Of a stretch of 64,000 bases of DNA, positions 5,308 to 34,856 are shown piece after piece. The notes under the pieces were generated by a model. That model was not told where the DNA came from. It saw nothing but the letters and a program-made list of their open reading frames with translations, and did no database searches. A program made the translations under genes and the position numbers. The DNA comes from Anastrepha obliqua (taxonomy: Eukaryota; Arthropoda; Insecta; Diptera; Tephritidae): positions 46,712,501-46,776,500 of the forward strand of contig NC_072896.1 in assembly GCF_027943255.1 (NCBI RefSeq), written 5' to 3'. The first letter of the stretch is position 1. Each line of letters begins with the position of its first letter.

Positions 5308-5316
5308 TTTTTAGGC

Positions 5317-8350: not shown

Positions 8351-8385
8351 ACGCAACGCCCTCCAGGTACGCCTCTGACGAAATG

Positions 8386-9306: not shown

Positions 9307-10276
9307 ATGAATCGCCAATCCGAGCCCGAAAAAAACCTTTTTAAAATTACATATACTGATGGGGATCATAAGCTGAACATTTATTATGCTGTCAATCCAT
9401 TGTCAAATTATGAGAGTTTGATAGAGGTACTCCACAGGCGTCTTTTCAAGGAGATCAAGTTGCCAAGGTGTGAACTAAGAATCTACTGGCTTGGTAAGAT
9501 ATCAAAAAGTACCTTAGTGTTTTTCAGGTAAGCCCCCCAAAGTACACATACATACATACACACATATACGGGTATAAAGTTTTCTATTTTGTATGTATTC
9601 TATACGTACAAAAGCCATTACGGATATGCATGTATGTATGTATGTATGTACGTACGTGTACTCGTATACCAAATAACGTAACAATGTAGTGAGGTGGACT
9701 TTGCATACATATGTATGTATGTCATACATGTAAATTTTATTACAATAATTTTCGCCATTTTCGATAAATTAAAAACATTTGTGGCCCCTAAATCTGCAAA
9801 AATTAAAATTTTGGACGCGGTAATTTTAAGTTATGAGTAATAATTGTTATGAAATATGATTTCGCCTTATCACAGTATAAAAACAAATCCTCTACATCGA
9901 TCATTATGAGTCATAAGACGAATAGTTTTGCTGACCAGTTTTGTGTAAATGATTATTGATGTAGAAATTTTACGCCGCTGCAAATTAATATAGCCATTCA
10001 ATTGCTTAGTACTGGTCACGTTGATATATCAATGTCGTTAATTAAATCGCGATGATACTCCAATATATCCAATAAGTATATGTAAATCTACCTAATATAC
10101 GTATTTTGCGTTACGCATTCCATTTATTTCATCCTCTCTTTTGAATAGATGCAAATCGGGATCAAATGGATATTCTCAGTGATCTAGATTACTATCTGTT
10201 CCGAACCAAATATGGAGGGTCCGACCACCTTTTTGTCGAACCAAAAGCTGTAAAAAAGGAAGGAAAAGAAGGCTGA
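9307..10276 (+). CDS. PB1-only Ref(2)P/p62-like protein, copy A (104 residues, two exons)
   Basis: Exon 1 (9307-9493) and exon 2 (10149-10276) are separated by a 655-bp GT-AG intron in phase 1. The protein is a PB1 domain: FKITYTDGDHKLN with the basic strand, then LPRCELRIYWL, then the acidic OPCA-type motif DANRDQMDI, then DYYLFRTKYG. Spacing and wording match the N-terminus of insect Ref(2)P, the p62/SQSTM1 receptor that binds ubiquitinated cargo for autophagy. The ZZ finger, LIR and UBA parts are absent. After VEPKAVKKEGKEG a TGA ends the frame, but the plus-one frame continues AEHADVSSEQPKTNGQ to a TAA at 10335, suggesting a recent single-base frameshift in the linker. It may act as a PB1 oligomer modulator, or be a decaying fragment. 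Confidence 0.75.
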
Positions 10277-11034
10277 GCACGCCGACGTTTCTAGTGAGCA
10301 GCCCAAAACCAATGGCCAGCCAACAGCCAAGCAATAAATAAATTAGCAAAGGCTGCACACTTAGCACCTAGTTTTTCTAGTAGTTTCTTCCTTTGCACTG
10401 TTTAAATCACTTAAATCTAAACTGCACATCTGTATCCACTCGCTTTCGGCATTGAACCGGTAAATCTGCACCAGCAAAAACCATTGGAATCTAGGAAAAG
10501 TGTTCATTTCCGTTTTAGTAATGAACTATCACAGAAGTTATTATTTCTTTCTTTCTATCAACATAAAAATGTTTTGCGTACACTGAAATATTTTGAACAA
10601 TTTTGAATTCATGTATTTATGTATATTTTTAGGTTTTATATATGTATGTGTTCTACAAATGCATACGAGTATATACATACTTCAAGTATGTAATTTCCGT
10701 AAATTCATATTTCAACTATGTTTTACTCTTATAATATGTATGTGTATGTATGTGTACACAAATAGTCTATAATAGTAATTGGAAAATCATCTATGTATGG
10801 TAGCGATATACACTCTAATGGAATTAATATTATATCTGAAATAAAAATTAAATAAAAATGCCAAATTAAGTTGTTCGGTTTATTAGAGATAAGTTCCATG
10901 GGACCACAATACTGGTCCAGATTCATATCCCCTAAAATTTGCCACTTCTAGGAAATGTTTTGTGCCTAATAACAAAGGATGCGTAATAAAACTTCAGGTT
11001 GTATCCTATTTGGTCCGCTAATGATGCTGAAATA

Positions 11035-12226
11035 TTGGGTATGGGAATAAGTTTCCGTCCTCGTAAAAGAGGTGTCGTTGCTGATACTATTTTGGTGTTC
11101 GCTCTAGTAATATACAGGTGATTTGAAGGTGTATATGTAATGTGAGGTCTCGATCGTAGTAATTGACATTCGTTTGAAGCATTAAGAGCCTTTTATCTGA
11201 CGTCAAAAATGTCTACGTTCCGAAGAACCAGCATTCGCGGGAAGTCAAGCAGCATTATTAACTTTTAAAGAAAAGTGCAGCTGAAACGTCTCGTCCATTG
11301 ACCAATATTTGCGGTAATCACGCCCCACCCAATACAAAAAAAAGAGAGGTTTCGACGCTTCCAAAGTGGCAATTTCGACGAGAGTGATAAAGATCGCGAA
11401 GGTACACCGAAAAAATTCAAAGATACTCAACTACGACAATTATTGGATGAAGACGCATGTTGAACCCTTGATGATATGTCTATAGAGTTAGATGTTGACA
11501 GATCAACCGTCAGTAAACGTTTGAAGGCGATGGGAATGGTCCAGAAAGCAGGTAACTGGGTGCCACATCAATTGAAGGAGAGGGATGTCGAGAGACGTTT
11601 GGTGAAAAGAAAAGGTTTTCTGCATCGCATCGTCACTGGTGATGAATAATGGATCTATTATGATAACACTAAGCGTCGAAAATGTTGGATCCTACCAGGG
11701 GAACCAGGTCTATTGACAGGTGGAAAAATATTCATGCTTCCAAAGTTATGTTGTGCATCAGGTGGGATCAGAAGGGTGTCATCTATTATGAACTCCTTAA
11801 ATCATCTGAAACCATCTGGCGATCGTTACCAACTGCAGATAATCCGTTTGAATCGAGCTCTCCCAAGAAAAGCGGTCGGAATGGCACGGTAGACATGACA
11901 AACTGATTTTGCTGCATGACAACGCCAGCCAAGCTTTGCTAAATCGGTCCAGAAATATTTAGAGGAATTGAAATAGGAACTCTTGCCCCACCCTCCATAT
12001 TCCCCACACATTCCTCCTTCGGATTACCATCTGTTCCGATTTCCGATCAAAGCAGTCATTCCTTATTGGAGAGCGGTTTACTTTTTACGAGAGCATCGCA
12101 AACTGGCTCAATGAATGGAGCAAGTCAAAAGAACTCGAATTATTCGTCAGAAGAATCCATATGCTGCCTGAAAGATGGAGTAACGTTGACGAAATCGAAA
12201 CGACCGAAACTTATTCCCACACTCAA
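11035..12226 (+). pseudogene. mariner element copy A with degraded transposase
   Basis: The left terminal repeat TTGGGTATGGGAATAAG is matched by a mutated inverted copy ending at 12226, with TA on both sides. The plus strand encodes, through stops and shifts, GNFDESDKDREGTPKKF, DVDRSTVSKRLKAMGMVQK, FLHRIVTGDE (first catalytic D), and a degenerate HPPYSPHIPPSDYHLF near 11980. This is the HTH plus DD34D layout of mariner. About 100 bp near the 3' end are missing compared with copy B. Confidence 0.85.
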
Positions 12227-12778
12227 TATTATTATAGGTACTAGAGCGCCGGCTTGTATGTAAACGTGGAATTATATCATCAGTGATGCGCCCAATATTG
12301 TTGGTATTTAATTTTCCTACCCTATTTATAACTATTACTCTTACATATAAATAAATAAAAAAAAATAAAAATAAATAATTTTCCTACATACATACATACG
12401 TATATACGTTTATATCTATGTGCAGGCTTGGTTTTTCGATTTTTTTGGAACAAAAGAATTGTGAATGTGACGACTCACCTGCAAGGCGCTACACTTAATG
12501 AATGAGTGACTGGGTAAGTGAGTGAAAGTTTGAAAGAGCGACCACTTTGGAATGACAAACACCTACAGGAAAAGATACAAACACAATTTTAGACTTAAAA
12601 AGCATTTCAATAGTATGCCAGTTAGACATTTTTGTATTCATTTGTACTTTTTGTAAATAACGGGTGGCTAGACAGCAGTTTCCTTATATAGTTTGAAATA
12701 CTTGTTTCTTTGATTTTGCAACGTTTTTAACTTCGGGCAGCTTATTTATTTTAATTACTTGGGAGTGAAAAGAGGTTT
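12227..12778. other. Region without recognised genes
   Basis: An A-rich run of AAATAAATAAA type near 12345-12380 and CATA repeats near 12390-12410 are visible. Nothing else is recognised. Confidence 0.5.
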
Positions 12779-12809
12779 CTACACTTGGATCTTAGCCATA
12801 AGACCGAGA
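12779..12809 (-). pseudogene. U2 snRNA 5'-end fragment
   Basis: The minus strand reads TCTCGG, then CTTATGGCTAAGATC, then AAGTGTAG, matching the 5' end of U2 snRNA in about 29 of 31 positions. It then diverges exactly where the branch-point recognition sequence GTAGTA should be (AGAAACC instead). No further U2 sequence follows, so this is a short retro-fragment or chance relic. Confidence 0.5.
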
Positions 12810-13009
12810 TACGGTCGCCGTAGTCGAATACCAAGTTTTTCAATAAGTTTTGCGGTCCGATAAAAGAGGGCATTGCTACTAGCCTAAATGTTTTTGTTAT
12901 GTTGGTACACTCTTCATATGAACGTACAAACATATGTGAGGTTTCATTGCAATCTTTCAATTCATTCTTTACAAGCCATTTAGTACCGGCGTGTCACAGT
13001 CGTATAAAA

Positions 13010-14040
13010 TCAAGTATCATCCGGTGTTTGCATTTTTATTTTTGGAAGGTTTAAAAGCAACGGAATTTTATGAACGAATGTTAAAAGTGTATAAGGATTT
13101 CTCACTTTTCGCCATCAATTAGTACCATAGAAAGATGAGTTGCATAATTTAAACGCTTTCAAGAGAATCCACGTCAAGGACGTCCAAAAACAGTAACAAC
13201 AGCAGAAATCGTAGGAAAACGACAGGAAATCGTATTGGAAAATCGTCAAGTGACTGCAAGAGATTAAGTAGAAATTCCCGACATCCCGTTGAGCAGTGTA
13301 AGCAATATTTTGACTGAAGTATTGTGTTTCAGAAAGCTGTAGTGCACAATGGGTTCCGCATTCGCTAACAATGAAAAACAAAACACATTCGAATGCGACT
13401 TTCTCAGCAACATTTTGAGGGGTTTCGGAAGGATAAAATGGATTTTGTGCATTGATCCATCACTGTGTGTGAGACTTGGGTCTATCACCATGATCCTAAA
13501 TCAAAACCTGGTTCTTCGGGTCCGAAACGAGTTCCCGTCCAGAAATAGGCCAAGAAGGTGTTAGCATAATTTTTTTAGGATGCGAAAGGAATTTTATTTG
13601 TGGACTACTTGTAAACTGGTAAAACAATAAATTCTGAATATTATTGTAACCTTTTAGACCAACTAAAAGAAAAAATTCGTGAAAAAAGACCCAGTTTGCA
13701 AAGGAAAAAATTTATTTTTCATCAGGACAATGCACCGTGTCACAAGAACATTTCGACAATCGCTAAAAACCATGAATTAAAGTTCGAATAGTTGGATTAT
13801 CCACCGTATTCGCCAGATCTGGTCCCTAGCGTTTTGCATTTGTTTCCAGACCTGAAAAAATGCATGCGCGGAAAGCGTTTTTCATCAAAGGATTAGGTCA
13901 TAACAGTTGTGGAAGCGTATTTTGCAGCCCTTACAGATTCTCACTTCGAGGATGGGATTCATAAATAGGAATCTTGTTAGAGTTTTGATGATCAGAAAGA
14001 CTATACTAAATAATAAAGTGTATTTCAAACCATAAAATCG
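13010..14040 (+). pseudogene. mariner transposase pseudogene (second lineage)
   Basis: Recognisable blocks in shifting frames are WVYHHDPKSKPG-like, GPKRVPVQK, KGILFVDYL, LLDQLKEKIREKRPSLQRKK, then FHQDNAPCHKN and DYPPYSPDLVPS, followed by LKKCMRGKRFSSKD. This is a DD34D mariner of the lineage with the HDPESK motif, unlike the mariner at 11035. Several stops and frameshifts are present. I could not define its terminal repeats. Confidence 0.8.
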
Positions 14041-14074
14041 TGTTTTTCTAATGAAACCGCAAAACTTATTGGAG

Positions 14075-14345
14075 AACAGTATGTTGGTGCGTGAGTACCA
14101 TTTCGAAGTGCGCAGGTCCAAATCTCCGTGCGTGAAACACTAAATGATAAACTTTTTTTCTAAGAGCGGTTGCCCCTCGAGTGTATTTCTGCCATGAAAG
14201 ACCTCCTCATATAAAATATCTGTCGTTCGGAGTCGGCTTGAAACTGTAGGTCCCTCCATTTGGGGCACAACATCAAGACGCATGCCACAAATAGGAGGAG
14301 GGGTTCGGCCAAATACCCAAAAAGGGTGTAAGTATGTCAAACAAC
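14075..14345 (+). repeat. tRNA-derived SINE copy
   Basis: The head reads GTTGGTGCGTGAGTACCATT with a decayed B box (GGTCCAAATCTC). The body follows (CGGTTGCCCCTCGAG, CGGAGTCGGCTTGAAACTG), then the typical end CAAAAAGGGTGTAAG. It lies directly after the mariner pseudogene. Confidence 0.75.
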
Positions 14346-14460
14346 CTAAGCTGGAACACTTCAAAACAATCCGAAACATTTTTAGTATAGAAAATTGACT
14401 GCCAATTACTTCAGAAATTTGGGAGTTGAAGGAGTCAAAATAAGAATTTTTGAAGTTATA

Positions 14461-14823
14461 TAGGGTGTTTTTTTTAGAGGTTAGGTTTTCAAGATGAAAT
14501 AAAACGTATATAATTTAATGTTATGGCCAAGAATTTAGCTTTATTATAAAGATAAGGGTTTGCCATTATGTTTTAAAAATGATACCCATTCAACCAAAAG
14601 TGAGCTTCATCGCTGAACAAAATTTTCTTCGATGCGTCGCGCGAACCGAACCATTATTTTCGTAATAAATTTGCACGATTCGCAGACGTTATTCAGGTGT
14701 AAATCTATTCATTATGAAATGGCAAACCAAACTGAGCATAAATCAAGTGACAGCTGTCAAAAAGACCATCTACGAAAAAAGTAGTGCCAACTTGAAAACC
14801 TAACCTCTAAAAAAAACACCCTA
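14461..14823 (-). mobile_element. Tc1/mariner-type MITE, 363 bp
   Basis: Perfect 33-bp terminal inverted repeats begin TAGGGTGTTTTTTTTAGAGG and are flanked by TA. The minus strand retains an N-terminal scrap (MNRFTPE, VQIYYENNGSVRAT) joined to FSDEAHFWLNGY, the region around the first catalytic aspartate. The element is thus an internal deletion derivative of an autonomous ITm element. Confidence 0.9.
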
Positions 14824-15560
14824 TAGGAACGAGTGCTTAGACTAATATTAGACTCCAATTCAAAAGCCTCCAAGAATAAGAATAAGGGAACACGATGCAT
14901 AATCGGTTTGGAAACTGGAGAATGGCTGTTAGCAAATGAGAAATTAAATTATTATCTATTAACTTATTTGCAAATGAATTCATCTGAATTAAATTAACAC
15001 TAAAAAGTCTATCTTGGGCAGGTTTGATTATTTCGTAAATTAGGCCAAACAGTTTTATTTAGATTAAAATCTGCTAAAAGAGACTTTTTGTATTACTTGC
15101 ATGTACGTCAATGATATTATTTACGCGAGCGCAGTACAGCAAATCACTACTACCAGGAGGAATGCACAAATAAAGAGTTTACCCAATGAGCCGCAAATGC
15201 AAGCACAAAGCTGATCAAGCAGTGAATCATTATTTGAAGGCTGAAAAGCGATGATGAGTGAACACATAACGGCAATTAGGAGTGTTAGGTGTAAGGGCCT
15301 GCTTCCTATCGACAATATCACTAGTCTGAGGCGTGGGCTTAAACGACGACAAATGTAGCCCTTTCAGTCGGACTGCTGCATACATTGAGATTTGCATTTG
15401 AGTTGCTTTCAACAACAATTGTAGACGCTATGCGAGTTTTGTTTACATTATCATTGTTATTTGAGACAGAATTCAAACCAGCAGAGGCAGCAAACGTTAG
15501 CAACGTCAGCGAACGAAATAAAGGGTACTCAATTTACAGATATCGGATTTTAAATTAAAA
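14824..15560. other. Region without recognised genes
   Basis: Short open frames on the minus strand at 15121-15418 have no family signature. No repeat boundary is visible. Confidence 0.45.
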
Positions 15561-15599
15561 TAAGCCAATGAAAATTCAAAGTGATTCAAAGCAATCTTT

Positions 15600-16560
15600 A
15601 TTATTTTTGTGTAGGGCCATTCATAAGATTTATTTTTTAAAAGTTGTCCCTTTGAAATGTTGGCGGCAACTGCGCCGTAATTCGGTTATCCCTAAACATC
15701 AATTTTGAGTGACTCGCTGGGCGACCTCGGGTGGTATCCCGTCAGTAACTTTAGTATTGTTGGCTTCCAATGCAACCAAATGTTATGGAGATCACGGGCT
15801 TTAATTTGCGGCATCAAGCAATCGTCTATCCTGGCGCGATAGCGTTCGCCATTCACTGTTACATTGGCGCCAGCCTCGTCTTTGAGAGGCCGCACCAAAC
15901 GGTTGTTTTCAATGGATATAATGGCTGTTCTTGAATGGCTTCGGGTTGCTCTTCAACTCAAATACGACTATTTTTCTTATTGACGTAACCATTAATCCAA
16001 AAATGAGTCTCATCCCTGAACAAAATTCAGGTCCCAAAATGCGGATCGTCGGTGAGTTTTTCAAGAGTCCAACAACCTAAATTATGACGCTTAGGAAGAT
16101 CGGCCGGCTTTAAATCTTGGACTAGCTGTATTTTATACCCTTTCAAGCCAATATCTTTGCGTAAAGTCGGTCAGGTGGTGCCATAAAATAGGCCAAGTTG
16201 TCGATTCTTCGGGGTCTTCGGCAAAATTCTCATTCTCTTCACTTCATGCTGTACGTGGTTTAATCGGTCGAGCATCATCCATTAGTTTAAAGTTATTCTC
16301 AATTGTGCCGATGGTTTGCCGAATAGTGCGTTCGGTAGGACAGTATGTACACCATAAGTTGATCTGAGCGCGCGATGAAACTTTACACAGAGCGTCGATT
16401 ATCGTAATGCGATTGTATGATTTGTAAATGTTGTTGACGCGTAAGTCAATGATGTTGTTGATGCGAAGTCGTCCATGATGAAATGTCAATGAATACTGAA
16501 AAATATTATATACTTGAATTTAGTTAGACGGTAGTCATGCGTGATCTGTCAGAAAAACCC
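15600..16560 (-). pseudogene. Tc1/mariner (ITm) transposase pseudogene
   Basis: On the minus strand the N-terminal part reads PTERTIRQTIGTIE and DDARPIKPRTA (HTH and linker, 16489-16244). A central FSDETHFWINGYVNKKNSRI-like segment follows near 16000, then VRPLKDEAGANVTVNGERYR (15898-15835) and LHNIWLHW. Frameshifts and stops are frequent and the last catalytic region is lost. It belongs to the same broad group as the MITE at 14461. The sequence TCTGTCAGAAAAACCCTA near 16545 may be one terminus. Confidence 0.75.
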
Positions 16561-16899
16561 TATTGGAAAAAGTACCTCCAATCTGATCACCCGTTGGTAG
16601 AAGAGTCACCTTCGGCAGAAAAGCCCAGATTCTTTGCACACCCGACATTGCTGGATTAGTAGGCGCAACAGCTGTTACGTCCAACACCAACATCGACGTC
16701 GGCGTATTGGTGGGGTTACTAAGCCAAATTAATTGAAAAAAAATATCTTTGACTTTGACTTAAAAGCTTGACTTTCTTAGCTATAATAATGCGTTTTTAT
16801 CGAGAAATATCTAAATTTCTACGACATTTTGTTTAAAAATTGGTTGAATTTCGGGACATGAGCTTTGAGCTTATAATGGAAAGCACAGTGGGGCATTTA
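16561..16899. other. Region without recognised genes
   Basis: Nothing recognisable is visible here between the ITm pseudogene and the Tigger-like element. Confidence 0.4.
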
Positions 16900-17399
16900 T
16901 GAGTACACCCAACTTTTTTTTTACTCAGTAGATACGTTCCTTAGAAAAGCGTGCAAAAAAAAAAATCGTGTAAAAAACACATGCGACATATGGTAAATTT
17001 GGGGATTTGTTGCACAACTTAAAAAAATCGCTTAAGATGAAAAAACCCTAAATATTTTCCCAAAAAACCGTACGAAAGAACTAATAATGAAATCCATGCA
17101 AACAAAAATTAAAATTAGTATACAGTGAAAATTCAATCCATAAGTACCAAATATAAAACTTGAAACTGAAATTAGGAACAAAAATCAATTTTGCAACTAT
17201 TCATCGCTACTTGATAACAAGCGTACACGTACGGACTGTTCCAGAAATGCTATCATCGGCAGATATGTCAGATATGTCTACCACAGCTGTCGGGTATGTT
17301 TCAAATGAAGAATTTCGTTCGTTATTAACGACCTCTGCTGGTTATAAGGTCTGTTATTAGTGCCTGTTTTTTGGTTTCTGAAGTTGCTTATATAATTCT

Positions 17400-18470
17400 T
17401 GATATCCAGCTACACTAAACTTACGATTAGGCTGAAATTTTAATGCTCGATCCATGTCAGGAAAATGTTGTTCCATACTTGTAGCTAATTATAAGCCCTC
17501 GCGAATTAAATCAGTCGTTCATATCGGCTTCTTTATTATCATAAACTGTCATAAATTCTATCAAATCGTCCCCATCGATGCCAGCCGTTTGCGTGTTGTT
17601 GAAACCTTGGCCACCTATTGCATTCGATAGATTTATAATTTCAGAACACACGTCTGATTTTTGTACTACGAAACTTCCACTTTTGACGCATGCTGGCAAA
17701 AGTTTTTCCAACAAGCATTTAAGGTCGATTGGCGCAACTGTGCCATGCTTCCCTAACATTCCAATTTCTTTCTTCTACTGAATCTAAAATATATTTAAAC
17801 GTTTGCTTGATGTAGTACATTTCAAATGCTGCCCTGATCGAATGGCTGAGTCAGCGCGGTGGTGTTGGGCGGTAGAAACAGCAATTAAATATTTGAATGA
17901 TCCAGAGCTGGGTGGCTGGGCGCATCACCAGCTGATTTTTCAGATTTTGCTATGCACGTTCTTTTAGGCATATGGAGTATAACTGCCCTGTTGAATTATT
18001 TTTCCTAGTTTATCCGGAAAATTTTTTGCAACATTTTCATCTGTTGATGCTAACTTTTATTTTACATTGTCAAAAGCGTGTCTTTTTAGAAAACCTATCA
18101 GCTATTCCTCACTTGCATTAAATACCAGTTTCTTCGTTGCCTGAAGACTTGTTGATGGTTCAAATTTCTGAAGTTGCTTGTATATTTTAAGTGATTTCTC
18201 TTTTATAACTTTCACATCAGTAGGTATTTTTTGTTTTTTTGCAAATCTTCCATTTAAAACACCATGGGTTTTTCCGTTTCCTCCAAGATAGGATTTCGAC
18301 TATAAGAAGATGTCTTAGAACTAAGTTCCGATCCAGAAATTATTGATTGTCGAATGGAATTCTCATTTTTTCTAATTATTCTTACAGTCGCTTCGCTTAA
18401 ACCAAAAGCTTCGCCAACAGATGCGGGACCTTCGCCTCTCTGCAGACAGTCTATGGCTCGGAGCAGCAAA
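17400..18470 (-). pseudogene. Tigger/pogo transposase pseudogene
   Basis: The HTH segment reads LLRAIDCLQRGEGPASVGEAFGLSEATVRIIRKNE (18469-18360), the psq-type DNA-binding domain. Further downstream on the minus strand come a degenerate LSHSIRAAFEMYYIKQTFKYI (compare the QPLDQGxxxxFKxYY motif) and RNWNVREAWHSCA near 17830-17740, then a C-terminal tail. Much of the DDE core between them is missing or shifted. Tigger elements insert at TA, which fits the flanks of this element. Confidence 0.75.
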
Positions 18471-18489
18471 CCTCTTGAAAAAAACTCCG

Positions 18490-22060: not shown

Positions 22061-22390
22061 AAAGCCCTAAAACATGTTCCTCCTCGAATGGGTAGCTCGC
22101 ACGCAAACAAATTTTTAAAAGGCATCAATCTGACTTATTCCTTTCTTCCTAAAGTTGAATTGGAGCTCCGACACATATTATATAAGACTTCTTTTGAAAC
22201 GAACTCATTTCCAGTCGGGTTGAAGACAGCATTACCTCAACTACTGGATTGTAGCACTTTCCTACCGGCAATCTCGATCGTTCATTTATGTATGTATGTG
22301 ACTTAAAAGTATTGAACATCTCAGCTGAAGCAACACTAGCCAAACACCATACAAATTGACACTGACCGTTATTAAAATAAATAAATAAGT

Positions 22391-22640
22391 GGCGCGTACT
22401 CTTCTGTTAGGGCTTTGGCCGAGCTCCTCCTGCTATTTGTGGCGTGCGTTTTGTTATTGTTACACAAATGGGGGGACCTAAAGTTTTTTAAAGAGGTTTG
22501 CCATTGCCTGTCGAGGAGCGACCGCTATTAGAAAGAACTTTTTCTATCATTTTGCTGTTTCATGTACGGAGACTCGAACCTACGCACTTTCGCATGGTAC
22601 CCACGCACGAAGGCATTCGGCTACGCCGGCCACCACAAAG
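22391..22640 (-). repeat. tRNA-derived SINE, copy B counterpart
   Basis: Same insertion as 231-545, but about 80 bp of the body are deleted between GGGGGACCTAAAG and AGAGGTTTGCCATTG. Confidence 0.75.
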
Positions 22641-24289
22641 ACCATTATTGGTGGTAACAAAAGCAGAGAACGAACCCACATCACACACCGTTTTGATCCG
22701 TTACTGCTTTCGCTCTCATTGTAGTTGTTTTCGCTGCGTGCGAGAAAAGCTTGCACATTATCGAAGTTTTGCTCGTTATTTTCACGACGCGAGTATTTCC
22801 AAATGAGTTTTTTTTTTTAAGATTTATTCTTGGAAGCCGATCACACGATTCTAATACAACTGCAAAATTTTCGCAAGAACTGAGTAGGCGGGCCAACAAC
22901 ATTATTGAGCACAGTTCAGGATGCAATGGAAAGTACAGTAATGTATTTATGTATGCGTACTTATGTATGTACATATATATGTATGTTTAATGTATTACTT
23001 CCAACACATTTTTTAGATTTTTTGATACGATATTCAATGAAATTTAATCAGTTTTTATGCAACTATGTTACATACATACATACATACATACATGCATAAA
23101 AGAGCGTTTGGAAATCAGATGGACTCAGCTCTATGCGTTTTTTGGATCTGTACAACGGTACTGGGACCCAATTTCTACTAAAATAGGCGACCAGTGATGG
23201 CTTTGTTCGTATACACAAAGAGTAAAGGACGCAGAGTGCTGCGGCTCAATACACACAGTGGGCCAAAATGGGCAAATGTATAAATTTTGTTAAAAATTTG
23301 TGCCTTAGTGGGCGGAATCCTTGATATAGCTTTTATATTCTCGATGACATGAAGTCCAAAATGAGGATTTAAACGTTTTTTATGAAGCTTTTCAACAATC
23401 CGATTACGTCTATATTTGGGGCAACAAAATTCTTGATTTGCGCACGCTCAGAAAGCACTGTGCACCGCAAGTTCTGCGCCGAACACACAGAAAATTAGCT
23501 CGTCGTCTTCGTTCTCAGAAGAACAACTTATTTGTAAACATAGTAGATACACTGCCGAAAAAAAAACAGCAGACTTGTTTCAAAGTAAATTTCTCACTTT
23601 ATATCTATTTACAAATCATTTTTCGTGCATTTTTTATTAATTGGATACTCCAATACGTGAAGATATATCTGAAATATTTATCTTCTATGAGAGAACAAAA
23701 GGGAATGGATTTGAAATTTTTATAGTACGAAATGCAGTGGCGTAACTAGGGTATAGAAAGCAGGGCACGTGCCATGGGTGCCACTCTAGGGGGGCCGCAA
23801 AGTGACACCTCAACTTTGTAAATATATTCAATTGCGATTTCGAACTTCAGTTTTAAATAAAGTTACAAGAAGTCAGGATAGTCGGCTCTGTAATCTGTAT
23901 AGTTGTTAGCAAGAAAAACTGAAAGGTATACTGTCCACGCCCCTCTACGCTGTTTAAAGTCAAGGCCAATTTAGCTGATGACTGCCGGTGACTCGAAAAA
24001 CTTCGAACAGCGACGGAGAAAGCAGTATGTGCGATAGAGAGAAAACACCGAGGTGGGAAGCGAGGGACATTTTACGTCTTTGCATGCAACTAACTTGCTA
24101 CGTCACGGCACTTCGTACTACTAAAACTTTCAAATCCATTCCAGTTTGTTCTCTCATAACCTTCGCTCAGTGTGTTCCATCCTCTTTTTCTCAATAAGGT
24201 GAAATATTGTTGAATAGCTTGATTGTTTGTCACATAAAGATAAAAATTTAGTCATATTTCCCATCGCAATCCAATGTCAGAAGTCCTAA

Positions 24290-24472
24290 TGGCCTCTGGA
24301 CACGGTCAAGCATGCTTGACTGAGCTTTGTGTGTGTTAGTTTGGTCGGGTGTCGTCGTGTCACACATACTTGTTGTCGGTAAAAATCAAAAATTTTAGAT
24401 ATTAGCGTCAATCACCCGACACGCACACATATAAAGTTCTTGTCAAAAATGTTTGACCGTCTCCAGAGGCCA
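24290..24472. mobile_element. Harbinger-type MITE, 183 bp
   Basis: Inverted ends TGGCCTCTGGACACGGTCAA and (reverse complement) TGGCCTCTGGAGACGGTCAA are flanked by TAA on both sides (24287-24289, 24473-24475). Copy A has no insert here. The TAA target fits PIF/Harbinger. No coding sequence is present. Confidence 0.85.
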
Positions 24473-24519
24473 TAAGGTTCGTGGATATTGATTTTGGAAA
24501 AAAAAACACAGTACAGGTG

Positions 24520-24770
24520 AAGGAAATCTTTCTTGGCTTTATTGAGTAGTGAATAGTATTTTAGAACAGTTAAAGAAAAACGAAATGAAATTTCAAAATT
24601 GTCGGTCACAGTGCTACGATAATGCTGCTGTGATGGCTGGGCACAAAAATGGCCTGAATGGAAAACTGACAGAAATAAATAGCCGTGCATTGTTTGTAAA
24701 CTGTGACAATCATTAACTCAACTTAGTTGGGGTACATGCAGCAAAAACAAAGGGCGCAATTTTTTCGCTG
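24520..24770 (+). pseudogene. hAT transposase fragment, copy B
   Basis: It repeats the copy A fragment (CRSQCYDNAAVMAGHKNG and LFVNCDNH recognisable in the plus frame), with a stop where copy A reads HSLN. It is inactive. Confidence 0.75.
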
Positions 24771-25074
24771 CCATGGGCGCAACGCCCTCCAGGTACGCCT
24801 CTGACGAAATGTCTAAGACGTAACCTTGTTTTCAGCTAACTGTAGCTTTTTTTTACATCACTACTGTATGATTCTGCGCAAATTTGACACACAGCAGCTA
24901 AAACAATCACCATTCGCTACGACTGTCGCCATTCTGTCGCGCATTTAGAAAATATATACATACACGTGTACATATGTATGTATATGCATTTTAGAATGCT
25001 TGGCGGCAAAGCGGCTGTAGTGCTGCGCATGCAGCTGCTTCTGCGAATATGAATGTATTTTGTTTTTGTAAATA

Positions 25075-25656
25075 CAGTAGATTCTGTTTTTATGCGGTTT
25101 TGAAATAGTGGAGTTTTTTTTAATTAAAATATGCATGTCGAACTATCGGGAATTGTACATATAAACAAGATTCTAAACAAAAAACTCATCACAGATTATA
25201 TCAAAAATGCTAACCCTACAAGTATGGAACCGCCTGCATCACCATCCAGATCAGATGTGTACATTTTCTCAAGTGACGGAAGTGATTTTACCCCAAATCC
25301 TAAACGAATGCGGGTATTGTCTGATTCTATGTATTTCTGACGATGTAAATTTATTTTTCGATTCTGACGTTTCTTAAATAAAGATATAATTTTCAAAAAT
25401 ACAATTTTTTGTTTATGCGATTTTATTATTATTTAGATTCATGCGGTCTATGGAACGTATCTATCGTTATAATATGGGACTAGTATCCTTTTTTTATGCG
25501 ATTTTATTACATTATTTCAGATTTATGCGGTTATTAGCACTTTTGAAACGTATATGTATATGTATAGTTTTACTATAGAACTGGTAGCTTTTTTTATGCT
25601 GTTTCTTGCCGAACGTATGTATGTATGTATATACCGCATAAAAACAGAATCTACTG
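25075..25656 (+). mobile_element. Tigger/pogo-type element, 582 bp
   Basis: Perfect 22-bp-class inverted ends begin CAGTAGATTCTGTTTTTATG and are flanked by TA; copy A shows the empty TA site. Subterminal TTTATGCGATTTTATTA-like motifs recur four or five times in the right half. An open frame at 25131-25340 (69 residues; KLITDYIKNANPTSMEPP, SSDGSDFTPNPKRMR) looks like the C-terminal tail of a pogo transposase. Confidence 0.85.
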
Positions 25657-26144
25657 TACAATATTTGGAATATCACTTGAGGATCTCAAATTTCTTTGAA
25701 TATATAATGAATAAAGGGCATATATGTATATTTATTAACCATTAGAGATAAATATACAGATACATATGTATATATGTACATATGAGTAGACATGTAAGTA
25801 TGAATATACATACGTACATCTGTATGTATGTTTACCGTACACTTGCTGAGTGCTTAGGCAAAGACAAATCGACAACGCCCTTGCTATCACATTCCTTTTG
25901 GGAATACGAGCAAAGCCTTCGTTGCTCGCCTCTACTGCTCGTCTCGATGCTTTCCTCGTCTTCTTTTCTCTCGACCGACAGCACAAATATGCCCGTTTGC
26001 AAAACAATTGAGTGATTATGACTCTGCTATATCTTATTACTTACTCAATGCTGCAAACCAGATAAACAAAAAATCTGACCGGTGGTGGCAGAGCACAAGT
26101 GCGCAAAATAAATTCGAATTAAAGGAACTTCGCAGAGCTCATAA

Positions 26145-26152
26145 TATAAAAG
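26145..26152 (+). promoter_or_regulatory. TATA box of PB1 gene copy B
   Basis: TATAAAAG is in the same position relative to the start codon as in copy A. The sequence between it and the ATG is conserved apart from indels in simple repeats. Confidence 0.55.
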
Positions 26153-26366
26153 TGAGTTGACCAGAGAACATGTGTTTTATCGGCCAAGGGAATATCGGAA
26201 GTTGGAATATCGAAGTTTAGAAAACAAGTGAAGTACATATATATGTACATACATATTTTATAGAAACCAAAACAAAGGACCTCTAAACGAACGAAAGTGT
26301 CGCGTAGCGGAGAAAAAAGTTTATTTTCACAGAAGTTCAGATTATTAGAAAAAACATAAACAAATA

Positions 26367-29300
26367 ATGGGGCGCCTAATATTTCAGCGCCGATCCGAGC
26401 CAGAAAAAGACCTTTTGAAAATTACATATACTGATGGGGATCACAAGCTGAACTTTTATATTGAATATCCACCGCCAAATTATGAGGGTTTGATGTCTGA
26501 ACTCCACAGGCGTCTTTTCCAGGACAGCAAGTTGCCAAGGTGTGAACTAAGAATCTACTGGATTGGTAAGATATCAAAAAGTACCTAAGTGTTTTTCAGA
26601 TAGACCCCCAAAGTACACATATGTACATACGTACATACATATACGGGTATTAAGTTTTCCATTTTGTATGTATTCTATACGTACAAAAGCCATTACGGAT
26701 ATGCATGTATGTATGTATGTATGTACGTACGTGTACTCGTATACCAAATAACGTAACAATGTAGTGAGGTGGACTTTGCATACATATGTGTGTATGTATG
26801 TACATGTCAATTTTATTACAATAATTTTCGCCATTTTCGATAAATTGAAAACATTTGTGGCCCTAAATCTGCAAAAATTAAATTTTTGGACTCGGTCATT
26901 TTAAGTTATGAGTAATAATGGCTAGAATTTAGTATAATGCCGATCGCTTTGGAAAAAACGGTAAAAAGGGGGTGATAGAGGGGTGTATCCCCATCTTAAA
27001 ACTGAAAGCAGAACCTGCGGAGGCTTATAGTTTTTAAGTAATTTAATGTTAAAGTTCTATAATTTAGCGAAAAGTTGGTGTTGCCATACACCTGAAATGA
27101 AAACGAAGTTCGCACGCAGGGATGTTCAGTGGAAGGTTCATTGTAAAACTGCAGTATTTTTTGCTGTAATTTAAAGTTGAGAAATAAATTTGAAAATAAA
27201 AACATACAACTAATTTAAACTTAAAAACAATGATATTAAGCGTATCACAAAAAATAATAAAGTAATTAAAATTAAATTAAATTAATTAACACAGTATTTT
27301 TGCGTGGAACTTTTTATCGCGTAGGCGGCCTTCGGCCGCGCTTCAAAAAAATAACCCTCATCAGTCCAACTCCGGCTACGCAATCCACAGTATTTTTGCG
27401 TAGAACTCCTTTTCGCGTGGGCGGCCTTCGGCCGCACTTCAAAAAAATAACCCTCATCAGTCCAACTCCGGCTGCGCAATCCACAGTATTTTTGCGTAGA
27501 ACTCCTTTTCGCGTGGGCGGCCTTCGGCCGCACTTCAAAAAAATAACCCTCATCAGTCCAACTCCGGCTACGCAATCCACAGTATTTTTGCGTAGAACTC
27601 CTTTTCGCGTGGGCGGCCTTCGGCCGCACTTCAAAAAAATAACCCTCATCAGTCCAACTCCGGCTACGCAATCCACAGTATTTTTGCGTAGAACTCCTTT
27701 TCGCGTGGGCGGTCTTCGGCCGCACTTCAAAAAAATAACCCTCATCAGTCCAACTCCGGCTACGCAATCCACAGTATTTTTGCGTGGAACTCCTTTTCGC
27801 GTGGGCGGCCTTCGGCCGCACTTCAAAAAAATAACCCTCATCAGTCCAACTCCGGCTACGCAATCCACAGTATTTTTGCGTAGAACTCCTTTTCGCGTGG
27901 GGGGCCTTCGGCCGCACTTCAAAAAAATAACCCTCATCAGTCCAACTCCGGCTACGCAATCCACAGTATTTTTGCGTAGAACTCCTTTTCGCGTGGGCGG
28001 CCTTCGGCCGCACTTCAAAAAAATAACCCTCATCAGTCCAACTCCGGCTACGCAATCCACAGTATTTTTGCGTAGAACTCCTTTTCGCGTGGGGGGCCTT
28101 CGGCCGCACTTCAAAAAAATAACCCTCATCAGTCCAACTCCGGCTACGCAATCCACAGTATTTTTGCGTAGAACTCCTTTTCGCGTGGGCGGCCTTCGGC
28201 CGCACTTCAAAAAAATAACCCTCATCAGTCCAACTCCGGCTACGCAATCCACAGTATTTTTGCGTAGAACTCCTTTTCGCGTGGGCGGCCTTCGGCCACG
28301 CTTCAAAAAAATAACCCTCATCAGTCCAACTCCGGCTACGCAATCCACAGTATTTTTGCGTAGAACTCCTTTTCGCGTGGGGGGCCTTCGGCCGCACTTC
28401 AAAAAAATAACCCTCATCAGTCCAACTCCGGCTACGCAATCCACAGTATTTTTGCGTAGAACTCCTTTTCGCGTGGGCGGCCTTCGGCCGCACTTCAAAA
28501 AAATAACCCTCATCAGTCCAACTCCGGCTACGCAATCCACAGTATTTTTGCGTGGAACTCCTTTTCGCGTGGGCGGCCTTCGGCCGCACTTCAAAAAAAT
28601 AACCCTCATCAGTCCAACTCCGGCTACGCAATCCACAGTATTTTTGCGTAAAACTCCTTTCCGTGTTAAAACCATTGAACCCAAAATTAAAACGTCATAT
28701 GCGTGTATGTAGTAAGCAGGCACAATAACCCCCATTCCCATCATTAACACTAAACTCAAGTACTTAATTTTTGTTTTCATTTGCAGGCCTCCGGCAACAC
28801 CATACTGTTGTAATTCCAATCTTCTTATTCGCGCTTAAAATTGGAATGTGATTGCATAGGCAAATGTATTTGCATTTAATTTTAATAGATATAATTATAA
28901 TATTAGCATAAAAATCGGTAAAAACACGCGTGTGAGTGTATATTTGGTGATTTATAGTGAAATGTTAAAAAATATAGAGTGTAATGTGGCAAATTATAGT
29001 GATGTTCCCAAGGGCATTTTGAATGTAAATAATTAAAAAATTATTATTTCCCGATTAATTTAAAGTTATAAAGAGTGTTCCTTAACACCTCACTAACATC
29101 TCCACCAAGTTTCATTAAAAAAAACATTATAGTTTGCCAGAAATTCCAAGATCGGCATTGTTCTAAATTCCAGCCGTAATAATTGTTATGAAATATAATT
29201 TCGCCTTATCAAAGTATGAAATCAAATCATCTTCATCGATCATTATGACTCATAAGACGAATAGTTTTGCTGACCAGTTTTGTGTAAATGATTACACTGC

Positions 29301-32300
29301 ACAACAGCATTTCTGGTGATTGGGTTATGACACATGTTTTTAGTCCAATTTTTAATGACAATTTCAAATCTGTAACTGAAATTCCTGTATCAGCTCTACA
29401 TATATGACACATTTGACTTTTTGTAATAAAACACTATAGATTTAAAGATTATTTTATTTTATTGCCTTCTTAAGTTTAAAAAAAATTTCTTTTATATGAT
29501 TTCCTTGCTGAAGTTGAAGGCATAGAACTGTTGTTAATGCCCCAACAATAGTCGGCCATCATGTGTGTGTTCCAGTAACCTTGATAGCGTTCCTGCATCG
29601 TACGAAGGGCGTGGTGGAATCGCTCGCCCTGTTCTTCGCTGAGATCCCCAAGATTGGCTGGAAAATAGTCCAGATGGTTGTGAAGAAAGTGTAGCTTAAT
29701 GCTCATATTACATCCAACCCTTTGGAAGTGACCCATTAGTTGTTCGACGTGCTGAGAATAGTCAGGATTTTTCTTATTTCCTAAGAAATTTTGAACAAGC
29801 CAGACAAACTCATTCCATGCCATTTTCTCAATCACTGTCATAGTGTCTATGAAGTTTGAGTCTTTTATTAACGACCTTATCTGTGGCCCGGCAAAAATAC
29901 CCGCTTCTGCACTCAATTTTGGAAACTTTTTAGACAAAAAGAAAACAATTTCCATTTTTGTCAAGAGCTTTAACAAATTGTTTTACAAGCCCAGGATTTA
30001 TATGTAACGGAGGTAAAATTATACGATCCCTTGATACTTAAGGTGGGTTTATCACGTTCTGTTGTCCTGGTACTAATGCTTCCCGAGCAGGCCAATCTTT
30101 TTTAATCCAATGTTGATTTTTAGCTCTACTATCCCATAAGCAAAGAAAACAGGGAAACTTTGTGTAACCACCTTGTTGGCCTAAAAGAAAGTTAACCATT
30201 TTTTAATCGACACATATGACCCAATTGTGTTCCGCATATTTAATTTTGTCTAAAACCAGAGCAATAGTTGTATATTCTTTTTTTTACTTTAGTAGAATGT
30301 GCAATAGGCAATGAGGCCAATTTGTTCTCATTGTGTAAGAGAACACATTTTAAACTCCGTTTTGATGGATCTATAAATAAACGCCACCCACTAGAAACGT
30401 AATTTTGTAATCCCATTGCAGCCATTAAACCAGGTACATTTTTACAAAATACAAAGTCATCTTTTTCAGCAAAATATTCAAGGAAAGTTTGTTCTCTTCT
30501 GCGATAGTAAGATATTTTAGTTTCTTTTGTGACTAACTTTCTTTCTTTTAATGCCAAAATTTCTGAACCAGTCTTTCCCAGATCTCTAATGAGGTTTAAA
30601 TCATCTTGGTTAAATGGTTTTGGTGTTCCCAGTTCACAATCAAAGTCCCTATCGCTATTGTCTGTTTTTGCCTCAAAATGTAAAGGTTCTTCCTGTGAAG
30701 CACCAGGTTGAGGTTCAGATGACATCGTAGGGCTCAAAACACGTCTATATGCCGATCGTATGGAAGGATATTCCCATTTGCCTCGATTTTTTCGGTTAAT
30801 GCCAGTTATTTTTACCATAAAAAAATAACAGTCGTCGTGGTGGTTCACAGGTTCAATCCAGATCATAGCAGTTTCGTATCTAAATTTATTCCTTTTCTTA
30901 TTCGTCCACAAACGTAGAAACTCAACGCACCTTTTGCATACCTTTTGTGGAATCCAAGGCTTATTTTTCATTTCCATTGGGTGACCGAAGTAACTTTTGT
31001 ACGCCTCATTTACGAAAGATGTCACATTCAAACGGTTTTCTTGAAACATATACATATGTACTCTCCGCAAATAAAACAAAAACTATTCCGGTCATTTATA
31101 CAAACTCGTCTTGACGATGCCATAACAAATAATATTAAGAAAACTTAATATTTGTTTAAATATTCGTCAATTAACACTGAAATATAGTGATTTTTTTGTG
31201 ATAGCTATAACTCGTAAACAAGAGCTGTTACAAAAAAATGAGGGTATATTTAGAATCAGCGTTGTCAAATTAGTAAACATCAAGTATCAAAAGTCATTCA
31301 TCAGACAAAAAGTGCGATTTTTTGTTTTTGTGTTACTGATGTAAAAATTTTACGACGCTGCAAATTAATATAGCCATTCAATTGCTTAGTACTGGTCACT
31401 TTGAAATATCAATGTCGTTAAGGGGTTATACGCAGTTATGAAGCAAATAAAATACGGGTTGTCAAGGATTTATCCTGAAGAAACTTCAGAATATTTTAAT
31501 TTGAAAATTTTTGGCGGTTATAAAAGCATCCTTCAAGAACGTAACACAATTTTTTATTTATGAAAATGTTGATTATAGAGCGCGCTGCAGGCGATTTCTG
31601 GAACCTCCTTTAAAAAAAGACGATTTACGGTGTACATCGTAACTCAGGATTGGATTATCTGAAATCAAAAACTAAACAAATTTTGTTAATATATTAGATT
31701 ATCTAGTAATTAATCGTTCGGCTAATCAAAATAGTGAATTTTCAAAAAATGGCAGCTTTTAAAAGAAATGATTTCGATTTTTACGTTAAAATTTGGCCGT
31801 AAATCTTATATATAAAAATGGAGACGTTTTTTTGTGTTCGTTAGTCGCCGATTCACGCCTAAACGCATTCACCGATTTCAATCAAACTTTCACAGATCAT
31901 TGGTATTGCTCCATAGATGGTTTGTGTGAAGTTTTAAAGAAATTGGTAAAAGTATGCGTGCGTTGTTTAAGTGTGAAAAATACAATATTTGCGTGTTTCC
32001 CTTATACGGACATTACGTATACGGAATGAGAATACACGCAAATGAATAGAATATACACAGACATGAATAACATTGTTTTGATGTCGAGTGACGTATGCGA
32101 CTGAATTATTCGTAATGCAATAGTTGTCCTCTCTTTTTTTTCCTTTTTATGCATGCGTGACACGGCATCAAAGCACATTGCTTTTTTTTAACTGGAAAAA
32201 TATTTTGAGCTTCACTTGAACGTGATTTGAACGAAAATAATTTAGATAAAATAAAAATTCGTTAAATATATTTGATTCCATTAATAACCATAAGCCTGTA

Positions 32301-34856
32301 TTTTTCGAAGTTCAAAGTTTTTGGACAAATATGGACGCGTTTACTTAAATTAAATGTTAAATATATATATATAAATGCGCAAATGTAAAAGTTTAGATGG
32401 ATTTAAAATATACGAAATTATTCAGCGGTTGAATCCATACATTTTTTGAAATCCATCAAAATGGATCGACAGTCGCCATAAATGTTCTTTTAAAAAATAA
32501 AATATGTTAATTTAATGGTAGCTCGAGTATTAAGATCAGGTTTCTATTAGTATAAATTTGTTCATGGGTTTGCGTAATTTTTTTGTGGTGAAAGTCTAAA
32601 ACCAGGAAAAGAAAACGCAAAAGCTATTGAGCAAAATGTAAAAAATAAATCCTCCTGTAAGTATATATACTCGAAAAAGTTATGCTAACACTTTTTTCAT
32701 GCATTTAGGTAGACAATTTTATATGGGCAAACGTACGTTTACGAGATAAATGCCTAAAAGCAGGTATAACTAAAATAGCGCTCTCAGGGATTTCTGTTAC
32801 AATACTTCTGTAAATTTCATGCTGCGCTGAAGCCAAATGTTCAGGATATAATACAAAAATGCATATTTAATTGATTTCACATAGTAATATTATCATTGTT
32901 AAAAGAGAACAAGTTGGCATTAGGTAATAATTAAATAATGCAACCTTATGTGTTGCTTTGACGAGTGGAAAAAACCAAAATAAATAATTATGTTTGTATG
33001 TGTGTTTAAAAGAGTTGGATTATTTTGTGAGTGTGAGCAGTTTCAAAGAATAGTTGCAAGATTAAAAAATACCTGAAACACATTTTCATTTAACAACTAA
33101 AATAGCAAATATGAGCAAAATATGTACTTTCTTCAATTTTCTTCTGTTGCCAACTTTCGGAAAAACGTAAATTCACCGCGATGCGATACAGAAACAAAAA
33201 GACAGCGACAGCGCGCAGAGGGTTTTGAGCAATAATATAAATTTGTATCAAACAACGCATCAAAGAGCAACCGTGCGTACAGAAAATTGTGTTGTACTTA
33301 AAACTTCACCACTATAAACTTGGTCCTTATAAAGGACTTTGACCACAGTTTGTTTATTGGATATACTGAGGTCAACATAATCAGCGGTATCAAAACCATT
33401 TGGTGAGTGGTCAACAATTTTAAAGTGCGTTTTTCATTATTATTTTTTTTTTTTGGAAAAAATTTATAAAAATAAAATATATTGTGCGTAAAATTTTAAT
33501 AATCAGTGAAAATAAAAAAACTGTGGTTTCGTTGTTGTTGTTAGCGATTTTAATGCACATTGTGTGTTTTTCATGTTTTTTTTTATTAAATTCATTACTT
33601 TTCAATTATTTTCTTTTAACTTATTTGAAATCAGCTTATGCGGCCAAAAGAATTAGAAATTTAATTTCAACAATAGAAAAAAGAAAATTATATTACTTAT
33701 ATTTTCATCGCTTTATTTTAGAAATGCCACGCCCGCGAAGAAATGATATTGGTCGTCGGTCGCGTAGAACGCAAAATAGATCAAATGAAAGGCAAAATCA
33801 ATCACAAGAAGAGCGAGAAATTCAAAACCAAAATCAAAGGAAATGTATGACCAGGTCACTCTCAGGCCATTCACCTGAAGAACGTATACAACGTAATGAG
33901 CAAGATAGATTAAAACAAACACAATAAACAAAACACAAGGACAATCGCTGGAATTATGCGGAATTGACTTAGAATATCCATGCTTCTCCCACGGATAATT
34001 ATACGAGTATGTATCATGTTCACGTGTAGGAAAGCCATCAGTTCTGTTTATTTATACCACAACTCAGGGCAAAACAAACAATGTAGTTCACGAAAAGACT
34101 TTGCATTAGTTTAAGTTTAAAATTAACATTAATTTTATATTGTAAAAAAAGAATAAATACTCATAGAGTGAATTTAAATCGAGTGTTCATTAGTCATTTC
34201 TAATTTTGATATGCCTAGCGAAGCAGGCAGAGGGTCCACTAGTTGATTATAAAATGGAAAATAAGTATCAGATTTACAAAAGGAACGATTAATTACTAGA
34301 AAATGTATCTTTAAAGATTGCGTTAAAACGGTTGACCGATCAAACAAGCCGTTTTCGAGATATCGTGTCCACCGACTTGAAAAATGCCGTTTTGAAAAAA
34401 ACACGTTTAAAGATTCAATACCTACCTTAAAACGTGCCGAGGCATCTCTACATATTTAGGTATAACTCCGAAAGTATTGCTTAGATCTACTTCAAATTTC
34501 GTGCGTATACTTTTGAATATATGTACATTACAAAAATGCAAAAAAAAATATCGATTTTTTTGAAAGTCATAACTGCGTATAACCCCTTAATTAAATCCCG
34601 ATGATACGCCAATATATCCAATAAGTATATGTACATATATCTACCTAATATTCATATTTTGCGTTACGCCTCCCATTTATTTCATCCTCTCTTTTGAATA
34701 GATGAAGCTTCTGATGAAATCGATGTTGCCAATAATCATGATTACTCTCTGTTCCGACGCAAATATGGAGTGAAAGACCACCTTTTTGTCGCACCAAAAG
34801 CTGAAAAAAGGAAGGAAACTAATTATCCAGCTGATTGTGTCAAACACGAAATCTAA
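26367..34856 (+). CDS. PB1-only Ref(2)P/p62-like protein, copy B (117 residues, two exons)
   Basis: Exon 1 is 26367-26565 and exon 2 is 34702-34856, with the same donor, acceptor and phase as copy A. The intron is about 8.1 kb because of three transposon insertions. The protein reads LLKITYTDGDHKLNFY, LPRCELRIYWI, then the acidic DEASDEIDV motif and DYSLFRRKYGVKDHLF, again a Ref(2)P-type PB1 domain. It ends with a short new tail, NYPADCVKHEI, where copy A has a longer linker relic; no ZZ, LIR or UBA follows. Compared with copy A there are about 32 replaced residues, a one-codon indel and only two silent changes. The start differs too: MGRLIFQRR replaces MNRQ. Whether so long an intron is spliced is unknown. 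Confidence 0.7.
26920..29175. mobile_element. Non-autonomous element with 8-bp target duplication carrying a minisatellite
   Basis: Ends GGCTAGAATTTAG and (reverse complement) GGCTGGAATTTAG are inverted over about 26 bp including ATGCCGATC. GTAATAAT flanks both sides (26912-26919 and 29176-29183), and copy A shows the single empty GTAATAAT. No transposase is encoded. The 8-bp duplication fits hAT- or P-like superfamilies; the GGCT ends do not let me choose. It lies in the intron of PB1 gene copy B. Confidence 0.85.
27291..28660. repeat. Minisatellite: 14 units of exactly 96 bp
   Basis: ACAGTATTTTTGCG recurs every 96 bp from 27291 to 28635. Each unit contains GCGGCCTTCGGCCGC, a six-base-pair hairpin with a three-base loop, in otherwise AT-rich DNA. 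Variation is minimal (for example GGGCGGCC versus GGGGGGCC). Because 96 is divisible by three and the unit has no stop in several frames, 450-500-codon open frames appear on both strands; these are not genes. Confidence 0.95.
29297..31332 (-). mobile_element. Degraded DNA transposon of unclear superfamily
   Basis: Comparison with copy A brackets an insert between GTGTAAATGATTA and ATGTAAAAATT. The ends read CACTGCACAACAGC on the left and, reverse complemented, CAGTAACACAAAAAC on the right, a weak inverted match. I could not find a convincing target duplication. A minus-strand pseudogene fills most of it. Confidence 0.65.
29476..31079 (-). pseudogene. Widespread arthropod transposon-associated protein, function unassigned
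   Basis: From 31079 down the minus strand reads IPQKVCKRCVEFLRLWTN, CYFFMVKITGINRKNR, SYYRRREQTFLEYFAEKDD, GWRLFIDPSKRSLKCVLLHN and LASLPIAHS. A shifted, stop-ridden middle follows. From 29976 it reads FPKLSAEAGIFAGPQIRSLI, NFLGNKKNPDYSQHVEQLM, GCNMSIKLHFLHNH, LSEEQGERFHHALRTMQERY and MADYCWGIN. I recognise this as a multicopy protein found unannotated in many arthropod genomes, probably a transposase. At least three lesions make it a pseudogene. Confidence 0.7.
31804..34242 (+). mobile_element. Helitron, internally deleted (2439 bp)
   Basis: It starts TCTTATATATAAAAATGG and ends with a small hairpin (GCCTAGCGAAGCAGGC) followed by CCACTAG. It sits between A and T with no target duplication, as expected for a rolling-circle element. 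Both extremities of the RepHel protein survive (33724-33927 and 34005-34109), but the Rep nuclease and most of the helicase are gone. Confidence 0.85.
33724..34109 (+). pseudogene. Helitron RepHel remnants: N-terminus and helicase C-terminus
   Basis: From 33724 the frame reads MPRPRRNDIGRRSRRTQNRS followed by a Gln/Asn/Arg-rich stretch to a stop at 33927, like the start of Helitron polyproteins. At 34005-34109 another frame reads YVSCSRVGKPSVLFIYTTT and GKTNNVVHEKTLH, the last conserved block of the Pif1-like helicase. Everything between has been deleted, so no transposition protein can be made. Confidence 0.75.

Follow-up and report, generated by a model that had tools for sequence, protein, structure and literature searches.

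Two duplicated PB1-only, Ref(2)P-like genes of Anastrepha obliqua differ almost entirely at replacement sites and were probably driven apart by diversifying selection

The window analyzed here, which is the whole stretch of 64,000 nucleotides (nt) at positions 46,712,501 to 46,776,500 of Anastrepha obliqua contig NC_072896.1 (forward strand), contains a two-copy segmental duplication, the collinear BLASTN blocks of which total ~6 kb with 85 to 95% identity counting gaps. Each copy carries one small two-exon gene whose product resembles the PB1 domain of the autophagy receptor Ref(2)P (p62), and both genes, designated gene 1 and gene 2, are intact with a GT-AG intron. All coordinates are those of the window, and the features of the duplication and of the genes, including the spliced open reading frames (ORFs), are as follows.

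2..12188 (+): segmental duplication copy 1, from collinear BLASTN blocks; its start may precede the window
9307..9493 (+): gene 1 exon 1, PB1-only and Ref(2)P-like, with a spliced ORF of 104 amino acids
9494..10148 (+): gene 1 intron, 655 bp, GT-AG, read from the sequence
10149..10276 (+): gene 1 exon 2 of the spliced ORF, TGA stop included
22155..36347 (+): segmental duplication copy 2, from collinear BLASTN blocks
26367..26565 (+): gene 2 exon 1, PB1-only and Ref(2)P-like, with a spliced ORF of 117 amino acids
26566..34701 (+): gene 2 intron, 8.1 kb, piecewise homologous to the gene 1 intron, with large insertions
34702..34856 (+): gene 2 exon 2 of the spliced ORF, TAA stop included

The intron is in phase 1 in both genes and splits the Asp codon of the motif YW(L/I)D, and its greater length in gene 2 is accounted for by insertions. 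The sequence of copy 1 outside the ~6-kb aligned part likewise consists of insertions, such as that at 2280-8090. A tblastn search found no third gene copy within the window.

The core alignment of the two genes comprises 93 PB1 codons, from R.SEPEK to PKA, and excludes the first residues and the tails past PKA, where indels prevent codon alignment. A full-length codon alignment including the tails, which naively gives 41 replacement and 3 silent differences in 103 codons, was dropped because of several tail indels. Over the 93 codons, the genes show replacements at 32 codons, silent changes at 2 (CCC/CCA and CAT/CAC), and one indel of a single codon, which is exactly the count that the initial annotation had offered as an approximation made by eye, and the counts of 32 and 2 are unchanged under three tested gap placements. 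The replacement codons comprise 22 with one base changed, 7 with two, and 3 with three. By the NG86 method, the proportion of differing replacement sites (pN) is 0.189 and the corrected replacement divergence (dN) is 0.217, and the silent equivalents, pS and dS, are 0.092 and 0.098; in codons with an unchanged amino acid, 2 of 37.7 silent sites differ.

The non-coding DNA of the duplication provides the neutral reference. Eight non-coding segments diverge by 4.9 to 7.2% each, and the pooled value is 0.057 (241/4212), with the intron at 0.063 (42/665). The mariner-like 3' flank B (69/698, 9.9%) was excluded from the pool because it possibly represents two different element copies, and this exclusion lowers the neutral value. 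The 150 nt upstream of the ATG contain a single difference in 141 sites, together with 6 indel events. The raw replacement divergence is 3.3 times that of non-coding DNA, and Fisher tests separate replacement from non-coding differences at a P value of 4.5e-11 with all non-coding DNA and 1.5e-7 with the intron only, whereas silent differences are indistinguishable from non-coding ones (P = 0.38 and 0.41, respectively). The coding sequence therefore evolves faster than its own flanks, as had been proposed initially, with dN lying not at or below the divergence of the surrounding DNA but far above it (0.217 versus 0.057 to 0.063).

Codon models and simulations give the same direction. A GY94 fit to the exons alone yields an omega of 4.0 and a neutral divergence t of 0.059, which is near the intron value, and it rejects an omega of 1 at a P value of 0.012 (0.018 under one gap placement). 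Once the neutral divergence is fixed at 0.062 from non-coding DNA, an omega of 1 is rejected at a P value of 3e-12. In neutral simulations at a divergence (K) of 0.062, the mean number of replacement codons is 12.4, and 32 was reached in 0 of 5000 runs; the frequency of such runs is 0.0008 at a K of 0.10 and 0.11 at a K of 0.15.

Two protein searches returned a sole relative of similar length, the 128-amino-acid "protein ref(2)P-like" of A. ludens (P0001), which was one of two candidates in one homologue search and one of 425 in the second. The PB1 domains of gene 1, gene 2, and P0001 are about equally distant from one another, with pairwise identities of 59 to 61 of 93 residues, and hence neither copy alone accounts for the replacement excess. 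In the three-way alignment, 51 of the 93 columns are alike and 15 differ in all three proteins, and the changes unique to one lineage number 9 in gene 1, 8 in gene 2, and 10 in A. ludens. The rate excess is limited to replacement sites and is spread over the three known lineages. In addition, a relic of the P0001 tail is present at the end of gene 1.

10263..10334 (+): C-terminal tail relic, identical at 24 of 24 residues to the end of A. ludens P0001 by tblastn

The relic is in another frame than gene 1 and continues from 10277 past the gene 1 stop, and the protein alignment points to a net loss of 8 nt just upstream of it. Between gene 1 and A. ludens, the relic tail is changed at 0 of 24 residues and the PB1 domain at 34 of 93 (P = 8e-5), and a possible assembly error at the frameshift would leave this contrast unaltered.

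A search with Drosophila melanogaster Ref(2)P retrieved at least 44 proteins from 7997 scored candidates. Among the 44 matches listed, 25 are named ref(2)P or sigma-P, 8 are hypothetical, 11 are nameless, and none bears a tephritid label; 24 of the 44 were chosen as the comparison set of homologues. Genes 1 and 2 align with the N-terminal region of most Ref(2)P homologues, and gene 1 matches full-length homologues with expectation values (E) down to 2.4e-17 in a set of 45 proteins. The Pfam PB1 model scores gene 2 at an E of 7.9e-5 and 23.0 bits, which is under the curated cut-off of 23.6, and gene 1 at an E of 0.11 and 12.9 bits, also under the cut-off, while P0001 carries a precomputed PB1 label. 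Homologues P0016, P0022, P0035, and P0045 seem to start with intron-derived residues and join Ref(2)P where exon 2 of the window genes begins, which suggests, from the alignments, that the intron position is common to the window genes and Ref(2)P. No ZZ or UBA domain was found in either gene by a Pfam scan, the ORFs ending at 104 and 117 amino acids, and because both domains are absent, the products as predicted fall outside Ref(2)P proper and are best described as PB1-only relatives. The description "Ref(2)P-like PB1" in the initial annotation is thus upheld for the PB1 matches and the apparent intron position and does not extend to the ZZ and UBA domains or to the length of Ref(2)P.

The fold was modeled on A. 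ludens P0001, which is ~60% identical to the window proteins, using AlphaFold with 23 Ref(2)P homologues. The model is a beta-grasp with the elements E-E-H-E-E-H-E and block means of the predicted local distance difference test (pLDDT) of 78 to 95 over residues 11 to 100. Compared with the PDB, it gives 13 matches at an E of ≤0.001, with TM-scores by query of 0.43 to 0.52; 11 are titled PB1, and the remaining two (2o2v and 2dyb) are proteins that contain a PB1 domain. The p62 PB1 structure (6jm4) is at rank 20. A sequence search of the PDB with gene 2 gave no match, and one with alignment A2 gave 40 matches, all of them in the ZZ and UBA parts and not in PB1.

Variation among the three PB1 domains is not evenly distributed over this model. 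Strands hold 22 alike and 9 variable columns versus 28 and 33 in helices and loops (P = 0.019), and of the 21 columns without variation among the 24 Ref(2)P homologues, 16 are identical in all three proteins, versus 32 of 67 other columns (P = 0.020). The type-B lysine is retained in gene 1, gene 2, and A. ludens. At the positions that are presumably equivalent to p62 D69, D71, D73, and E82, gene 1 has D-N-D-D, gene 2 has D-A-D-D, and A. ludens has D-D-D-D. At the OPCA position corresponding to D71, all 24 chosen homologues and A. ludens thus have Asp, whereas gene 1 has Asn and gene 2 has Ala. In p62 filaments, according to PMC6978347, D69, D71, D73, and E82 oppose lysine K7 and a double arginine.

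Because replacement divergence exceeds non-coding divergence more than threefold, silent divergence is indistinguishable from it, and the excess extends across three lineages, we consider it probable that a PB1-only gene derived from ref(2)P/p62 was duplicated and that both copies were then driven apart by positive, diversifying selection, which is the kind of selection that the initial annotation had suggested.

Several observations weigh against this interpretation. The exon-only test is modest (P = 0.012 to 0.018), with few silent sites, and its likelihood profile permits an omega from ~1.2 to ~40 and a neutral divergence of up to ~0.18. Triple-base codons number 3 where the single-omega fit expects 0.39 (P = 0.006), an excess to which multi-base mutation, or very strong selection at a small number of sites, probably contributes; a two-class fit to this one gene pair places 13% of codons at an omega of ~51 and the remainder at 2.2. 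When the initial 100 nt of the intron are aligned separately, 15 of 96 sites differ, although this microsatellite-like part is probably in part misaligned, as the whole 5' intron piece gives 23/346. Exon indels are not significantly rarer than those outside (P = 0.43), and indel depletion was dropped as a sign of coding constraint on this result. The tail is frameshifted in gene 1 and has no match in gene 2, which could mean decay. The conservation test on Ref(2)P-invariant columns is weaker at other thresholds (P = 0.087 at 0.95 and 0.046 at 0.9), and homologue P0044, outside the chosen 24, appears to have Glu at the OPCA position equivalent to D71.

With regard to mechanism, the autophagy receptor gene ref(2)P/p62 would have given rise, in a fly of or near Anastrepha, to a gene for a PB1-only protein, and a segment including this gene would then have been duplicated. 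The segment covers 12 kb in copy 1 (~6 kb alignable) and shows a neutral divergence of ~6%. The proteins may act via the PB1 surface by binding either Ref(2)P or a parasite protein that targets the PB1 domain of Ref(2)P, and partner choice may have shifted through the substitutions in the helices, the loops, and some of the acidic (OPCA) face. A PB1 module with changed partner choice could cap, copolymerize, or bind something else.

An arms race with rhabdoviruses as the driver of the changes, which the initial annotation had named as a plausible cause, is by analogy with Drosophila a tentative proposal that we hold with less than even confidence. In Drosophila, resistance to sigma virus is attributed to a Gln-Asn to Gly change in the PB1 domain of Ref(2)P in PMC4723093; the PB1 domain of homologue P0002 holds two Gln-Asn pairs, so that the Gln-Asn/Gly site is ambiguous there. 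Among tephritids, Ceratitis capitata carries a vertically transmitted sigmavirus at a mean prevalence of 12%, as stated in PMC5310039. PMC13219430 mentions sigmaviruses or rhabdoviruses from five tephritids; that of Anastrepha suspensa is the rhabdovirus of a parasitoid wasp, present in flies that were parasitized.

A narrower form of the viral proposal, which we regard as rather unlikely, is that the genes encode free-standing, fast-evolving tephritid PB1 decoys derived from Ref(2)P, in which the basic face is kept and the acidic face is eroded, which would allow docking on Ref(2)P, or on viral proteins bound by it, with no polymer extension, and successive duplicates would be tuned against changing rhabdoviruses. 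End-on binding to p62 filaments is described for other PB1 domains, with that of NBR1 shortening the filaments (PMC6978347). The same text counts against docking on Ref(2)P polymers in two respects: three of four tested PB1 domains left the filaments unchanged, and the PB1 domain of MEKK3, which is of the basic type, was not observed at the ends of p62 filaments, the latter result making the decoy less probable (PMC6978347).

The strongest alternative, although it seems doubtful, is that diversifying selection acted without viruses, through a new function after duplication or through a genomic conflict such as one in the male germ line. The rate evidence fits this equally well. A paper cited in the review quoted next is said to call ref(2)P necessary for male fertility in its title. 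A germ-line role is also in keeping with the spermatid degeneration of ref(2)P mutants noted in PMC3332208. On the other side, the mapped natural variant that is reported for the PB1 domain in PMC4723093 affects sigma virus.

The duplication itself could be questioned if two alleles had been set side by side by the assembler, in which case the signal of selection would lie between alleles. A divergence of ~6% and large insertion differences are compatible with two haplotypes; however, haplotypes should share both flanks, and the homology of the two copies ends at 12188 and 36347 within a mariner-like element.

35619..36347 (+): mariner-like element closing the duplication homology, with its partner at 11484-12188; Transposase_1 match with an E of 3.2e-15, ORF at 35623-36033

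No collinear homology was found beyond 12188/36347 downstream within the window. Since the homology stops inside the mariner-like element and nothing collinear follows, a true duplication is favored over side-by-side haplotypes, which are improbable. The element is present at the right edge of both copies, with a K of 0.106 between them that is above those of the other aligned segments, and it is a possible recombination breakpoint.

Ectopic gene conversion, in which the exons of one copy would have been overwritten by a more distant paralogue, would account for the multi-base codon changes, and the paralogues compared here are the two window genes and P0001, which is less than a full set. In addition, when the fit uses only the exons, a neutral divergence of ~0.15 to 0.2 with an omega of ~1 is no more than weakly excluded, with twice the log-likelihood difference (2dlnL) at 2.4 to 4.6. 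The silent differences argue otherwise, as a silent divergence of the donor of 0.19 or 0.30 gives 2 or fewer in 37.7 sites with a probability of 0.016 or 2e-4. Conversion also needs two tracts, one in each exon, while the intron pieces between them stay near 6%, and it would load one lineage, whereas the changes are even across three. Conversion by a distant paralogue, which had been named at the outset as the contrary case, was not found among the two window genes and P0001, and we consider it very unlikely. Least probable of all is relaxed constraint or the decay of both copies as pseudogenes, for although the out-of-frame tail of gene 1, the missing tail of gene 2, the insertions that fill the gene 2 intron, and the frequency of exon indels fit it, decay cannot exceed the neutral rate as the replacement divergence does, the ORFs and splice sites are intact in both genes, and conservation is higher in strands and at Ref(2)P-invariant residues than elsewhere.

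Further features were recorded around the genes and elsewhere in the window. Two possible TATA boxes, which share one sequence, lie upstream of the genes.

9087..9094 (+): possible TATA box of gene 1, TATAAAAG, read by eye
26145..26152 (+): possible TATA box of gene 2, TATAAAAG, read by eye

The gene 2 intron contains a 96-bp minisatellite at 27290-28660 (14.3 copies, 98% matches), in which several frames are open, and, at 30240-31079 on the minus strand, an ORF of 279 amino acids whose match to zf-AD is weak (E = 0.0025) and below the cut-off. An inverted repeat at 2632-3230/5722-6127, with 346-nt arms that are 96% complementary, flanks two ORFs with no Pfam match; it is perhaps a DNA transposon, and no counterpart was found in duplication copy 2. 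A dispersed repeat family occupies 14161-14325, 50933-51097, 56041-56205, and 62050-62214, with 60 to 89% identity to its reference copy and more matches near 211-513. The sequence at 36532-36923 is self-complementary and rich in ATTCGAATA units.

Earlier reports of such genes were not found in the literature by a search that was weak, as "ref(2)P" is unusable as a term. PB1-only paralogues that have changed at dozens of sites with their strands kept would help to pinpoint the functionally important residues, and they belong to a fly family that harbors sigmaviruses and other rhabdoviruses. The exons, set against the introns that they enclose, also offer a clear case of positive selection that is visible in one genome.

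Compared with Ref(2)P/p62/SQSTM1 of flies, the window genes appear to share a PB1 domain by sequence, the type-B lysine, most of the OPCA acidic residues, and the intron position. The fly proteins, in contrast, have ~600 amino acids with ZZ and UBA domains, whereas the window proteins have 104 to 117 amino acids without either, and the window copies also differ in their above-neutral replacement rate and in the loss of one OPCA Asp in both. A. ludens P0001 is likewise PB1-only and of the same length class, and its tail matches the out-of-frame relic of gene 1 at 24 of 24 residues; unlike the window genes, it retains the tail and the OPCA Asp, and its PB1 domain is identical to theirs at only 59 to 60 of 93 residues. 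The Drosophila resistance loci ref(2)P, CHKov1/2, and Ge-1 offer a further comparison. What sets the Anastrepha genes apart from these loci is that whole PB1-only paralogues have diverged at dozens of sites, which is known here from sequence alone. Points of likeness are that ref(2)P resistance lies in the PB1 domain, that CHKov resistance includes duplications, and that Ge-1 is reported to have been under long-term positive selection.

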